Shown: piece by piece, positions 9,281 through 45,532 of the stretch | How the letters are laid out: each line of letters opens with the position of its first letter | How positions within the stretch are numbered: the first letter of the stretch is position 1 | NCBI GenBank assembly: GCA_017431845.1 | Contig: JAFRKG010000015.1 | Coordinates: 1-52,771, forward strand | Length of the DNA stretch: 52,771 nt | Direction of reading: 5' to 3' | Origin: Methanosphaera sp. | Lineage (GTDB): Archaea > Methanobacteriota > Methanobacteria > Methanobacteriales > Methanobacteriaceae | Translations under genes and position numbers: made by a program | The notes under the pieces: model-generated | The model's database searches: none | Told to the model about the DNA's origin: nothing | The model's input: only the letters and a program-made list of their open reading frames with translations

Positions 9281-10816
9281 TTACCTGTATTCTTGTCTTA
9301 TTTTGCATATTTTATAATTATCATTTTCTTTTACTATTTCTGCATAATATGGTACTGCTGTATCCTTCTTCAATAGAATATGACTAATATTGAGTTGGTG
9401 TATTTCATTCTTATTGGACCATCCTTTAATTATGTGGACGGGATCTGTAACATAATCGGGTATAGATTCTGTGAAACCTCCGTAAGCTACTGGAGTACCA
9501 CTTGTTGAAACAATTATTGTATCCATGATTGCATCTTCAGATATTAACATTCCATTAGGAGTATTTTCTTCAAAATATTTCATGATTTCATAACGATTAT
9601 GGGCTAGATTATTGTCTGCGAATCTTGAAGAAATGACTGTTGGCTTAAATAATGTTACAACAGGATTAACAATTAAATGAATATGTTCATCAATAATTGT
9701 GTTATTTACATCATGATTTCCCATTAAATCAGGAGTATAACTGTCTTCATATAATAATGCTGATGATACGGATAATAATATTACCAGTGCCACAAAAATG
9801 TTCTTGTATTGTATCTGAGTTATTTTATTATCATAAATATAGTTTAATCCAATACCTGCAATAATTATGAGAACATAGGATGCAACTTCTAATATTCTTA
9901 TCGAAACTGTGTTAAATCCAAGATATTTTATCTGACTTAATAATATTAATGATAATGAACTTGATAATAGGAATATTGATAACTTTGTTTTCTTTTTAAA
10001 CAACACATAATATCCAATTAATAGGAGTATTGTTGTGATAACTCCAAAGTATTTGAAGAAGAAATTGGTTATTATAGTATCTGTGCCTGAAATTGAATTA
10101 AATACTAAAGTATAATTTATTGCTATGTAAATCCACCAGGGTAAACCTAAACATAGTACTATCAGACAGTAACATAGTATTATTTTCAAATTAATATGCT
10201 TTTTCAACAATTGTATTAAAATGTATAATCCGATAACGCCACTTGTTAGTATAGCTGTTGCCATATGTAAATTCCATATTAAAGCAAGTGAAATTGCGGA
10301 TATTATGATTTCTTTATAATTTTCTTTGATGATACCATTATAACAATAGACAATAGCTATTAAAAATAATCCTATTGCAATTGTTGCGGGTGTGCAAATA
10401 ACGGATCTGTTAAATGTTATGAAACAGAACATTGCCAGAAATCCTGTTAAAAATGAAGTTCGGACATTTGTTATTTTATATGTTGTAAATGTAATTATGC
10501 CTATAAGGTAAGCTGAAAATAATGGTTGTGCACACCTGCATAACTCTATTGATGAAATATTTAAGGTTTTACTAATGCCTGCGAATACCAGATGGAATAA
10601 TGGTGGATACATTATTAGTCTACCTTTGGGAGCAACGGTGAGATTATCCCAAAAAACAAGTCCATTATTAGCATACAAATTAATCATATGTATATGATAA
10701 TAAACATCCCATGAAATAGGGAAGGAATATTTGTATAATAAGAGTAATGTTAAAATAAATGATAGGATTGCTGGTAATACTAATAATTTTTTATCTTCTT
10801 TTAAAAATAGATTCAT
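9281..10816 (-). CDS. Polytopic membrane protein, GT-C glycosyltransferase-like
   Basis: This 511-residue protein has about ten predicted membrane segments. The first extracytoplasmic loop carries SWDVYYHI (W36, D37, H41), like the acidic loop motif of lipid-linked-sugar-dependent GT-C transferases. A second conserved block, APKG-YPPLFH, follows. The same layout recurs in the protein at 49697-51274, so the two are paralogues. The C-terminal ~120 residues are predicted to be outside. It is the first gene of a pair with the CWB2-like protein, suggesting it glycosylates or builds a surface polymer. Assignment to GT-C rests on topology and the loop motif, not on a recognised family. Confidence 0.6.
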   Translation of the reverse strand: MNLFLKEDKKLLVLPAILSFILTLLLLYKYSFPISWDVYYHIHMINLYANNGLVFWDNLTVAPKGRLIMYPPLFHLVFAGISKTLNISSIELCRCAQPLFSAYLIGIITFTTYKITNVRTSFLTGFLAMFCFITFNRSVICTPATIAIGLFLIAIVYCYNGIIKENYKEIIISAISLALIWNLHMATAILTSGVIGLYILIQLLKKHINLKIILCYCLIVLCLGLPWWIYIAINYTLVFNSISGTDTIITNFFFKYFGVITTILLLIGYYVLFKKKTKLSIFLLSSSLSLILLSQIKYLGFNTVSIRILEVASYVLIIIAGIGLNYIYDNKITQIQYKNIFVALVILLSVSSALLYEDSYTPDLMGNHDVNNTIIDEHIHLIVNPVVTLFKPTVISSRFADNNLAHNRYEIMKYFEENTPNGMLISEDAIMDTIIVSTSGTPVAYGGFTESIPDYVTDPVHIIKGWSNKNEIHQLNISHILLKKDTAVPYYAEIVKENDNYKICKIRQEYR

Positions 10817-11003
10817 TTAAAATTACAACCTTCATCTTATTTAATTTAAGATATTCCATTCATCATTGATAAATGTTATAATTATTAATTTAACAAATTG
10901 TTCTAAGATATTATAAATTCATTATAATTTGTAATGTCTTATATTGTAATTAATTTATTTAATGAAAAAAAGAGGTTAAAAATTAGAATAGTTTACAATA
11001 GAG

Positions 11004-11369
11004 TTATCCTATTTTAATATTTTTGGATTCTTCCAGTATTAATTCTAATTCCCCATTATATTGTGTAACCCTTCCTATAACGGTTATTTTCTGGTTTTTG
11101 ATTAATTTAGTTTTTAGATTTGTTGATGGAAAAATTATTAAATTAATAGTTCCGGTTTGATCTTTTAATTTTATTATTTGAGTATTTGATTTTGTTTTGA
11201 TGATTGATTCTATGTTTGCATCTAATTCGATTTGATTGTCTATTTTTGATTTGTTTATTTGTTTTATTGTTAGTTTTTCAGGGTTTACATATCCTGATAA
11301 TAATATTATACCCATCAATCCTATAATTAATGTTATTAATGATATTTTAAATATTTTCTTGTCATTCAT
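11004..11369 (-). CDS. Membrane-anchored OB-fold protein
   Basis: A 121-residue protein with one N-terminal membrane segment (ISLITLIIGLMGIILLSGYV) and an OB-fold-like domain from ~40 to the end (LDANIESI, IIKLKDQTGTINLIIF, KNQKITVIGRVTQYNGELELILEE). The pattern matches the tRNA-anti/nucleic-acid-binding OB family. The fold alone does not prove nucleic acid binding, and the anchor places the domain probably outside the cell. No Shine-Dalgarno sequence is seen before the ATG, so it may be leaderless or poorly translated. The DNA ligase gene upstream on the same strand ends 69 bp away. Confidence 0.6.
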   Translation of the reverse strand: MNDKKIFKISLITLIIGLMGIILLSGYVNPEKLTIKQINKSKIDNQIELDANIESIIKTKSNTQIIKLKDQTGTINLIIFPSTNLKTKLIKNQKITVIGRVTQYNGELELILEESKNIKIG

Positions 11370-42917: not shown

Positions 42918-43094
42918 CTTTTTTTAATATATTTTTTTATTTGATTAATTTATCCTGTTAACTCAATGTTTATTATTGTTTTGATGAAGAAATAAGATTA
43001 TTTTATTTTTAGATAACTATTTATAAAACTTCCTAGTATAAATTTAGTATAGACTAAAAAATTTTTCAATAAAAAAATAAAGGAGGAAGAACAA

Positions 43095-43322
43095 ATGAGT
43101 GACAAAGAAGATACTTTTGTAGTTGAAGATATGCATTGTAATGCTTGTGTTAATACAATTACTAAAACATTAACTTCGAATGAAGCAGTAACAAATGTTG
43201 ATGCAAATCTTGAAACCAAAGAAGTTAAAGTTAAATATGATGATGAAAAGTTTGATGTTGAAGAAATTTTAAGTTCTTTAGATACCATAGGTTTTCCTGC
43301 AACTATTAAAAAAAAACAATAA
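43095..43322 (+). CDS. CopZ-like metal-binding domain; 5' part of copA
   Basis: A 75-residue heavy-metal-associated domain with MHCNAC in the metal loop (VVEDMHCNACVNTITKTL) and the full ferredoxin-like fold. It ends IKKKQ-stop directly after a nine-adenine run. AAAGGAGG precedes the ATG. If the reading frame slips back one base in the A-run, translation continues as KKKTINVAGMTCVMC into the copper ATPase at 43334, giving one two-domain CopA. This may therefore be a short chaperone form made from the same gene, a naturally split gene, or a homopolymer sequencing error. Confidence 0.85.
   Translation: MSDKEDTFVVEDMHCNACVNTITKTLTSNEAVTNVDANLETKEVKVKYDDEKFDVEEILSSLDTIGFPATIKKKQ
43308..43316 (+). 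other. A9 slippery run joining CopZ-like ORF to copA (-1)
   Basis: Nine adenines read AAA AAA AAA CAA TAA in the first frame. A one-base backward shift reads AAA AAA AAA ACA ATA AAT GTA, restoring the INVAGMTC start of a second metal-binding domain. The stop lies within five codons of the run start. AGGT at 43289-43292 is a weak upstream Shine-Dalgarno-like element. Confidence 0.7.
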
Positions 43323-43333
43323 ATGTAGCAGGA

Positions 43334-45532
43334 ATGACCTGTGTAATGTGTTCAAGAGCCGTGACCTCCGCAGTATCAAAAATGCCCGGAGTATATTCAA
43401 CCCATGTTAATCTTGTCTCTGAAACTGCAGATGTACTGTATAACCCAGAAGTAGTTACTATTGAAGATGTAGGAGAAAGAATTAACAATATTGGTTACGA
43501 ATACATGGGCATTCATGATAATAGCTCCATTAACAATGACGTAATTGAGAAAAAACATGAAGAAAATCAAAAAAGAAAATTATACCGAATTGTTGTTGGA
43601 TTCTTCTTTTCAGCAATATTAATGATATTGATGTTTGGAAACTTTAATTTAGGTCCAAATGCATCATACATAATGTTAGCTATATCAATTTTACCATTCA
43701 TTTATGTATCATATCCTATCATAAAATCTGGATTAACTTCTATAAGACATAAAAATTTAAATATGGATGTAATGTATTCATTAGGAATAAGTGTGTCTTT
43801 TTTAGCTAGTTTAATAAGTACATTCGGTTTATTAGGAACTAATGAATTCATGTTATATGATACAAGTATTATGTTAGGATCATTTTTAATGCTAGGTAAA
43901 TATTTAGAAGACCGAGCTAAAGGAAAAACTTCAGATTCTATAAAGAAATTAGTACAACTTAAAGCAACAGAGGCTACTGTTGAGAAATATATTGAAAATA
44001 AGGTAATTCAAGAGAAAATGCCTATCAATGAAGTTTTGAAAGGAAATATTATAATAGTAAAACCTGGAGAAAAAATACCTCTTGATGGAAAAATTATAGA
44101 TGGAAACAGTTATGTTGATGAATCTTTAGTAACTGGTGAATCAAAACCAATCCATAAAGAAGTGGGTTCAAATGTTATAGGTGGTTCCATAAACAAGGAA
44201 GGAACATTTAAATTCAAAGTCACAAATACTAGTGAAAAAACTGTTTTGTCACAGATTATTTCAATGGTACAAGAAGCTCAAAATTCAAGTCCTCCTATAC
44301 AGAAATTAGCTGATAAAATTATTAAATATTTTATTCCTGCAATTTTGTTAATTGCTCTAGTTTCATTTATTGTATGGTATGTGATTTTTAGGCAAGCATT
44401 TTTATTCAGTTTAAGTATTTTTATTTCAGTAGTTGTTGTGGCTTGCCCATGTGCATTAGGTCTTGCAATTCCTACAGCTTTAACTGTAGGTGTTGGTTTA
44501 GCAGCTAAGTATGGAATTCTTATTAAAGATGGGGAAACTTTAGAAGTTTCGGATAAGATAAACCATGTATTGCTTGATAAAACTGGTACAATTACTGTAG
44601 GTCAACCTACTCTTAGTACTATTATTAATTATTCAGAAAAAAGTGATGATGAAATTTTATGTATTGTTCGTTCAATAGAACAGTTCTCACAACATCCAAT
44701 ATCTAGTGCTTTATTTAATAATGAAGATAAACAGGGATATGAATTATATGATGTTGATAACTTTGAAAATATCACAGGTAAAGGAGTTATGGGAAGTATA
44801 GATGATATTCAATATTATGTGGGTAATAAAAAGTTAATGAAAACATATGACATGGATTTACCTGGAAATATCCTTGAAGATTTAGAAAAAGAAGAACTTG
44901 ATTTGAAAACTAGTGTTATTTTAGCTGATGAAAATAATATTTTGGCAATAATATCTGTTGAAGATAAGATTAAAGAAAATAGTATTAATGCTATTGAAAC
45001 TCTTCATTCCATGGATATTGAAACTTCGATGGTTAGTGGTGATAATAGGAATACTTGTGAAAAAATTGCTGAAAAAGTTGGAATCAGTGATGTTGTTTCG
45101 GAAGTTTTACCACAAGGAAAATTAGATTATGTTAAACAATTACAAAATGAGAATAAGATAGTTTCTTTCATTGGTGATGGAATTAATGATGCTCCTAGTT
45201 TAACTAAGTCAGATGTTGGGGTTGCTATGGGTACGGGAACTGATGTTGCCATAGAATCAGGAGATGTGATTTTAATTAATGGAGATTTATTGAATGCTGT
45301 TGCTAGTATTCAAATTAGTAGAAAGACTATGTCAAGGGTTAAACTTAATTTATTCTGGGCATTTGCGTATAATATCATATTAATTCCTGTTGCTGCAGGA
45401 CTCTTAATTCCATTTAATATCTTTTTCAGACCTGAATTCAGTGCTTTTGCTATGGCTTTAAGTTCTGTGACTATAATCACATTATCTTTACTTTTAAAGG
45501 GTTATGTTCCGGAAATTTTAAAGGATGAATAG
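43334..45532 (+). CDS. copA: Copper-transporting P1B-type ATPase
   Basis: The open frame from this ATG begins inside a metal-binding domain (MTCVMCSRAVTSAV), so the true N-terminus must come from the preceding frame. The rest is complete. TGESKP is the actuator loop, CPC (371-373) the membrane copper site with PTALTVG after it, DKTGT (D415) the phosphorylation site, SQHP the nucleotide-domain motif and GDGINDAPS the hinge. CPC with a C-terminal YNIILIPVAAGLL helix fits Cu(I) export (P1B-1). The ATG has AGGA only one nt upstream, too close to initiate well. No CsoR-type regulator is adjacent. Confidence 0.92.
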   Translation: MTCVMCSRAVTSAVSKMPGVYSTHVNLVSETADVLYNPEVVTIEDVGERINNIGYEYMGIHDNSSINNDVIEKKHEENQKRKLYRIVVGFFFSAILMILMFGNFNLGPNASYIMLAISILPFIYVSYPIIKSGLTSIRHKNLNMDVMYSLGISVSFLASLISTFGLLGTNEFMLYDTSIMLGSFLMLGKYLEDRAKGKTSDSIKKLVQLKATEATVEKYIENKVIQEKMPINEVLKGNIIIVKPGEKIPLDGKIIDGNSYVDESLVTGESKPIHKEVGSNVIGGSINKEGTFKFKVTNTSEKTVLSQIISMVQEAQNSSPPIQKLADKIIKYFIPAILLIALVSFIVWYVIFRQAFLFSLSIFISVVVVACPCALGLAIPTALTVGVGLAAKYGILIKDGETLEVSDKINHVLLDKTGTITVGQPTLSTIINYSEKSDDEILCIVRSIEQFSQHPISSALFNNEDKQGYELYDVDNFENITGKGVMGSIDDIQYYVGNKKLMKTYDMDLPGNILEDLEKEELDLKTSVILADENNILAIISVEDKIKENSINAIETLHSMDIETSMVSGDNRNTCEKIAEKVGISDVVSEVLPQGKLDYVKQLQNENKIVSFIGDGINDAPSLTKSDVGVAMGTGTDVAIESGDVILINGDLLNAVASIQISRKTMSRVKLNLFWAFAYNIILIPVAAGLLIPFNIFFRPEFSAFAMALSSVTIITLSLLLKGYVPEILKDE

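Follow-up and report, generated by a model that had tools for sequence, protein, structure and literature searches.

An A9 Tract Conserved in Methanosphaera Suggests Recoding of One Gene into a CopZ-Like Chaperone and a Copper Pump

Introduction

How might a single archaeal gene provide both a free copper chaperone and the pump that the chaperone would accompany, when the two coding regions lie in different reading frames? The question is raised by a locus in Methanosphaera sp. (assembly GCA_017431845.1, contig JAFRKG010000015.1), within the 52,771-nt stretch of DNA that we analysed as a whole and call the window. A short frame for a CopZ-like protein stops just beyond a run of nine adenines (A9), and a copper-pump frame, displaced by one base, continues from the same run. 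Such an arrangement may reflect regulated decoding, two separate proteins, or simple damage.

From comparisons across the genus and its family, we consider it very probable that copZ-copA is a programmed recoding unit, with chaperone and pump made from one gene by way of a slip on the tract. Standard decoding from the ATG at 43095 to the stop at 43320 would release a free 75-amino-acid CopZ-like chaperone; in some events a −1 shift at A9 would instead give an 812-amino-acid Cu(I) P1B-ATPase with two heavy-metal-associated (HMA) domains. A single transcription unit would thus fix the ratio of chaperone to pump. We infer the occurrence of slippage, its efficiency, and a shared promoter.

Results

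Gene Anatomy and Protein Families

The locus has the following features.

43043..43058, + strand: operator-like palindrome TTTAGTATAGACTAAA, a candidate, upstream of copZ
43080..43086, + strand: Shine-Dalgarno-like AAGGAGG before copZ, read from the sequence
43095..43322, + strand: 0-frame product, CopZ-like HMA domain with CxxC (MHCNAC); PF00403, 9.4e-16
43307..43309, + strand: TAA in the −1 frame, bounding the slip zone of this genome on its 5' side
43308..43316, + strand: A9 slip site, AAA AAA AAA in frame 0, including A_AAA_AAA
43316..45532, + strand: continuation in the −1 frame, with the second HMA domain (TINVAGMTCVMC) followed by the Cu-type P1B ATPase; TIGR01511, 580.6 bits
43334..43336, + strand: earliest ATG in the −1 frame, within the second HMA domain, an unlikely start

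The 0-frame open reading frame (ORF) runs from the ATG at 43095 through 75 amino acids to the C-terminus IKKKQ, its last codons (AAA AAA AAA CAA) preceding the TAA at 43320–43322, and PF00403 matches it as one HMA domain over profile positions 1–61 of 62 (9.4e-16). Downstream of its stop at 43307–43309 the −1 frame is open as far as 45532; this stop and the 0-frame stop at 43320–43322 necessarily confine the shift to 43310–43322. In seven of the 18 A9-bearing genomes of the genus the open stretch of the −1 frame reaches beyond this limit on the upstream side, without ATG, GTG, or TTG. The second HMA domain covers profile positions 1–62 of PF00403, starting at the second residue when the −1 frame is counted from 43313. 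On the same count the ATG at 43334 falls at residue 8, and a protein begun there would lack the first strand of the domain; ahead of it, the −1 frame is free of ATG, GTG, and TTG in all 18 genomes. These positions bear out three claims of the earlier note, which was made from the window alone: that a complete CopZ-like domain ends right after nine adenines, that a backward slip of one base reads into a second metal-binding domain, and that the internal ATG cuts into that domain. The source genome contains two HMA matches, both at copZ-copA.

Most relatives have, by eye, comparable purine motifs ahead of copZ. The pattern TTTAGN6CTAAA, chosen after some of the sequences had been viewed, occurs with at most one mismatch upstream of copZ in 12 of the 20 genus genomes (search space up to 150 bases upstream of the copZ frame, 79 in G011), and the palindrome TTTAGTATAGACTAAA is possibly the operator of a putative metal regulator.

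By family model the −1-frame part is predicted to be a Cu(I) P1B-type ATPase (CopA), exceeding the curated cut-offs of TIGR01511 (580.6 versus 397 bits) and TIGR01525 (593.5 versus 346.25), and falling below that of the CopA equivalog PRK10671 (504.7 versus 1316). The 0-frame product is an HMA domain (PF00403, 58.4 bits versus a cut-off of 24.8) left free in sequence by the 0-frame stop, and its CxxC is present in all 18 A9 genomes. We call it "CopZ-like" because the NCBIfam CopZ and copper-binding models remain under their cut-offs (NF033795, 49.3 versus 91; NF033794, 47.2 versus 95; TIGR00003, 44.1 versus 62). The products are presumably specific for copper, with a chaperone role for the smaller one.

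Conservation of the Slip Site within the Genus

Our sample of the genus consisted of 20 genomes, all with the pump. In 18 of them (which include G005 and G009, where contig ends break the pump) the site has the same form: the adenines number exactly nine and the next base is C, the CopZ frame closes with KKK, one further residue, and a stop codon, and the −1 frame encodes the pump. These 18 represent 16 distinct sequences around the slip site, G000 and G010 being of the same species, and they extend to the deepest member of the genus, G013, which is only 54% identical to the query over CopA. A degenerate pattern for the site matches 19 of the 20 genomes, including G016, in which a run of ten (A10) contains A9, and missing G018; a reversed control pattern has no match. 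Outside the copZ-copA locus we found no other HMA domain in the 18 A9 genomes, a result that is firm for the 12 that are at least 90% complete and less so for the six under 90%.

G011 has four HMA matches as a consequence of a tandem duplication of the start of copZ-copA (L011; G011:C117, about 9700–11310), with A9 in each copy. In the first copy the pump frame stays open for no more than about 179 amino acids.

Adenine runs are prone both to sequencing error and to slippage, and G016 carries A10, as one would expect if the arrangement were a sequencing error, a pseudogene, or a phase-variable tract; the earlier note had named a one-base error or a recent mutation as the simple alternative. 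The alignment of relatives that it proposed as a check instead gives the A-run, the frame offset, and the 0-frame stop in 18 of 20 genomes, among them G003, G008, and G010, which are assembled in one or two contigs, and neither A8 nor A11 occurs at the site in the 20. Non-coding A-runs just upstream (43056–43077 in the window) differ between G000 and G010 (A6/A8 and A7/A6), and the A9 is the same in both. Together with the low dN/dS values given below, this agreement strongly disfavours error or recent mutation, and we regard the whole group of explanations by error, decay, or phase variation as very improbable.

Apparent Selection at A9, at the Early Stop, and in the Two Frames

The three lysine codons of the slip site are AAA in all 18 genomes, a uniformity seen in none of the 13 other invariant lysine columns of CopA. 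AAA makes up as little as 43% of CopA lysine codons (G006), and the naive product of the cubed AAA frequencies, which ignores kinship among the genomes, is 1e-6. As a background we counted sense-strand A-runs of at least nine in samples of ORFs of 150 or more amino acids, a size cut that leaves copZ out: there is one in 327 kb in G010, one in 158 kb in G003, and four in 163 kb in G016, where the runs measure 9, 10, and 17 and the run of 10 is copA's own. In the same samples A9 was found at none of 31 KKK sites in G010 and G003 together and at four of 16 in G016.

The neighbours of the tract are constrained as well. The Ile/Leu codon that carries the 0-frame stop is ATA, TTA, CTA, or CTG (NTA/NTG) in all 18 genomes, and none of the other 27 of 28 Ile-rich columns is uniformly so. 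The codon preceding A9 never ends in A, which is true of two of 63 comparable Ile/Val columns when its own column is counted; the run may thus be held at nine from both sides. Beyond the tract, the −1-frame residues T, N, and G ahead of the ATG at 43334 are invariant, and the 0-frame residue that follows KKK varies among Q, P, L, and H.

For the CopZ part, dN/dS lies between 0.04 and 0.16 in seven of eight chosen pairs of genomes (dS 0.67–1.75) and is 0 in the same-species pair (dS 0.024); over the eight pairs it is low in the CopZ and CopA parts alike. A sliding scan of synonymous sites places the slip region among its top windows; other CopA windows score equally, and the scan on its own is not decisive. 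Taken together, both frames, the A9 tract, and the out-of-frame stop look as if they are selected jointly: slip site and offset are conserved and both frames show signs of selection, a combination expected of programmed frameshifting.

The same comparisons bear on a simpler arrangement, in which two separate proteins would be made, CopZ first and then CopA by re-initiation at the ATG at 43334, 11 bases past the stop. All 18 A9 genomes share that ATG, and its distance from the stop is, by established knowledge, suitable. Its methionine, however, belongs to the GMxC motif and is kept in the fused outgroups too, and initiation there would cost the domain its first strand. Each of the six codons ahead of it differs among the genomes in its third base, two of them also in the first base and one in the second, while T, N, and G do not change, and re-initiation would leave the A9 without a reason. 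We therefore hold it to be improbable.

Two Exceptional Genomes

G018 and G016 serve as natural controls for the recoding that we propose. The pump of G018 is encoded in a single frame without an A-run, and its first HMA domain has lost both cysteines (NMSDKSSF). Directly upstream of the fused copA lies a separate copZ of 73 amino acids (L015, about 911–1132), which is 32–54% identical to the first domains of the genus, as against 28–29% to four outgroup CopZ ORFs, the four that came to light beside the 30 loci whose flanks we examined. These values suggest that the G018 copZ arose by duplication within the genus and that a division of labour followed.

In G016, which is assembled as one contig, A10 brings the two parts into one frame (L013; G016:C1, about 282995–283024). 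The CxxC is intact, the stop codon of the A9 phase is kept, and no further HMA match was found in the genome. The A10 is possibly a mirror-image or switching state: under polymerase slippage G016 could still yield CopZ from A9 transcripts, which a ribosomal −1 slip would not directly provide.

Relatives outside the Genus and Evolution

Among the matches listed, 96 of 118 genomes of the family outside the genus encode the fused protein in a single frame (match from query residue 5 or earlier, ORF of at least 787 amino acids); the remaining 22 are uninformative, with a partial match, a later start, a paralogue alone, or no match among those listed. Of the 21 Methanobrevibacter loci among the best 80 listed, 19 have two CxxC domains and the pump in one frame, and in these 19 there is no run of seven A or T from −40 to +60 bases around the junction; the other two align only from residue 24 (L058) and residue 205 (L091). 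The earlier note had held that relatives with one uninterrupted frame and no A-run would count against its reading. Such relatives exist in the outgroups and in G018, with its separate copZ, but within the genus 18 of 20 genomes retain the A9, and the unbroken frame of G016 has A10.

A separate copZ, recognised as an HMA match in an ORF of 71–101 amino acids, is present in at least 19 of the 118 genomes. Some other genera, those of G029, G133, G134, and G137 among them, have in the matches listed two HMA matches only, both in the fused frame; with the fused protein and no separate HMA domain, such genera indicate that a free chaperone is not obligatory. This counts against the recoding reading, as do the single frame of G016 and the negative search for a consensus RNA fold.

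A CopA tree of 41 sequences was built from the first part of the protein minus the HMA domain. It joins the genus in one clade, with G013 deepest and G016 and G018 inside a clade of 19. The fewest state changes on this tree number three, which we read as one gain of the A9 and two losses. The arrangement apparently arose separately from that of Escherichia coli copA, from an in-frame ancestor.

RNA Structure

RNAalifold predicted no consensus pairs in the 110 nt from the A-run and none around it. A downstream stem-loop was tried as a stimulator and rejected: there is no consensus fold, and the downstream folds in G000 are ordinary (z −0.99, 0.16, and −0.20). By eye, no internal Shine-Dalgarno motif precedes the slip site within the 24 bases before A9 in the 18 sequences, and among the elements sought no stimulator of frameshifting was identified.

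A hairpin with A9 in its loop is strong in G000 (z −3.97, 0/200 shuffles). Over the set, 73.6% of cells pair, against a shuffled mean of 69.6% (5/500 reach the observed value) and at most 47.9% for slid versions of the hairpin. Its covariation is ordinary, with one pair showing double changes, double-change cells reached by 136/500 and the score by 50/500, and unexceptional pair types, and much of the pairing stems from Pro-Ala and Ala-Gly codons. We treat the hairpin as a possible element and draw no evidence from it.

Ribosomal or Transcriptional Slippage

Two routes could lead from the A9 to the pump. In the first, towards which we lean at a little short of even confidence, the ribosome alone would slip, by −1 programmed frameshifting one base back on A_AAA_AAA. 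The heptamer is contained in the site; the archaeal fucA gene is described as shifting by −1 at A_AAA_AAT, also in Saccharolobus solfataricus extracts in vitro (PMC8211752), and an insertion element in G003 has A_AAA_AAC ahead of a stop. Against a ribosomal slip stand the absence of a consensus 3' fold and the constraint itself, which covers all nine adenines and perhaps disfavours ten. The missing AAG had been considered as an additional argument against it; we gave that argument up, since a tRNA-Lys CUU exists separately in G003.

In the second route, which we rate nearly as likely as the first, RNA polymerase alone would add one A, and the resulting A10 mRNA would be translated in the ordinary way without the ribosome ever shifting. 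The run is exactly nine in all 18 genomes, though the ribosomal heptamer needs seven; the first lysine codon is always AAA, whereas the fused G018 has Glu there (alignment by eye); and lengthening seems to be avoided, the codon before A9 never ending in A. G003 has both tRNA-Lys UUU and tRNA-Lys CUU, like Thermus thermophilus, for which polymerase slippage on the nine-base run of dnaX is described (PMC5009743). G016 also fits, its A10 being accompanied by an intact CxxC, the A9-phase stop, and no other HMA domain, so that length-changing slippage would still give CopZ. On the other side, reported E. coli cassettes shift more with longer A-runs (7 A, 10%; 9 A, 40%; 11 A, 63%; PMC3711429), and among the literature matches listed no title or opening of an abstract presents transcriptional slippage on poly-A in an archaeon.

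A fuller history, more tentative than either route, is that the genus replaced a dedicated copZ by breaking an ancestral in-frame HMA-HMA-CopA with the A9, that polymerase slippage sets the ratio of chaperone to pump, and that G018 has since undone the arrangement through copZ duplication and fusion.

Discussion

The recoding proposed here concerns methane-making archaea of the gut. It is spread across a genus, in which the slip tract, the stop, and the two reading frames all bear marks of selection. Automatic annotation would probably label such pumps as truncated. The locus offers a direct test of whether slippage on A-runs by the RNA polymerase of archaea can be put to use; if the polymerase reading is true, copZ-copA would be, to our knowledge, the first cellular gene of an archaeon with transcriptional slippage conserved throughout a genus. 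Among the matches listed from the open-licence PMC literature, no title or opening of an abstract reports frameshifting in Methanosphaera copZ-copA.

Other genes of the same cell may be expressed across A-runs. We scanned contig C1 of G003 for runs of at least seven adenines that have a stop in frame 0 no more than 30 nt away and at least 100 amino acids in a shifted frame. Of the 16 matches, ten are in the −1 frame. One of these is copZ-copA, which alone has A9; seven are the copies of an IS630-type element, joined over A8; and in the remaining two the second frame has an ordinary start upstream of the run or seven bases after it. The G003 cell may accordingly use −1 expression on A-runs elsewhere too.

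The IS630-type element (L154:16161–17518; G003:C1, about 816161–817518) occurs in seven copies that share 1149 identical bases. Its ORF1 (HTH) and ORF2 (DDE_3) are joined in the −1 frame over A8 (A_AAA_AAC, with the stop next), which makes the element another candidate for −1 expression on an A-run.

Comparison with Known Systems

The dnaX gene of T. thermophilus is described as using RNA polymerase slippage at nine T, with two tRNA-Lys possibly relevant (PMC5009743). It resembles copZ-copA in its nine-base A/T run, in the two tRNA-Lys (here in G003), and in giving two products per gene; it differs in being a bacterial DNA polymerase gene, and in that slippage is reported there and deduced here.

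Nearer in lineage is fucA of Saccharolobus solfataricus, presented in two articles of 2021, a review and a research paper, as the sole gene of archaea for which −1 frameshifting has been shown; its full-length counterparts elsewhere in the Sulfolobales carry an A stretch that is shorter by one base, and the reason for the recoding is stated there to be unknown (PMC8211752, PMC8037382). Both fucA and copZ-copA are archaeal cellular genes with a −1 shift, proposed in our case, on an A-run, but in copZ-copA both products look selected across a genus.

A conserved −1 shift at poly-A has also been predicted in magnesium chelatase fs-genes of Methanocaldococcus and Methanococcus, in a survey of 1106 genomes downloaded in 2010 (PMC3711429). 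These genes, which we set beside copZ-copA by description, share with it a predicted archaeal shift of the same kind and belong to another gene and another group. Probably only one member of the genus, M. stadtmanae, was available in 2010. It may have the fused A10 form, which would explain why the survey missed the case.

The closest functional parallel, put forward in the earlier note, is copA of E. coli, for which decoding in the zero frame is described as giving the 834-amino-acid pump and a −1 shift a 70-amino-acid product (PMC5009743, PMC9470648). In outline the parallel holds, since in each case one gene would give a CopZ-like protein and a copper pump through a −1 event that follows the first HMA domain; it fails in polarity, which is inverted, the unshifted product of the archaeal gene being the chaperone. 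The slip sites differ as well, that of E. coli copA being C_CCA_AAG in place of the A9 here. The comparison suggests convergence of the archaeal and bacterial genes on the same pair of products under inverted logic.
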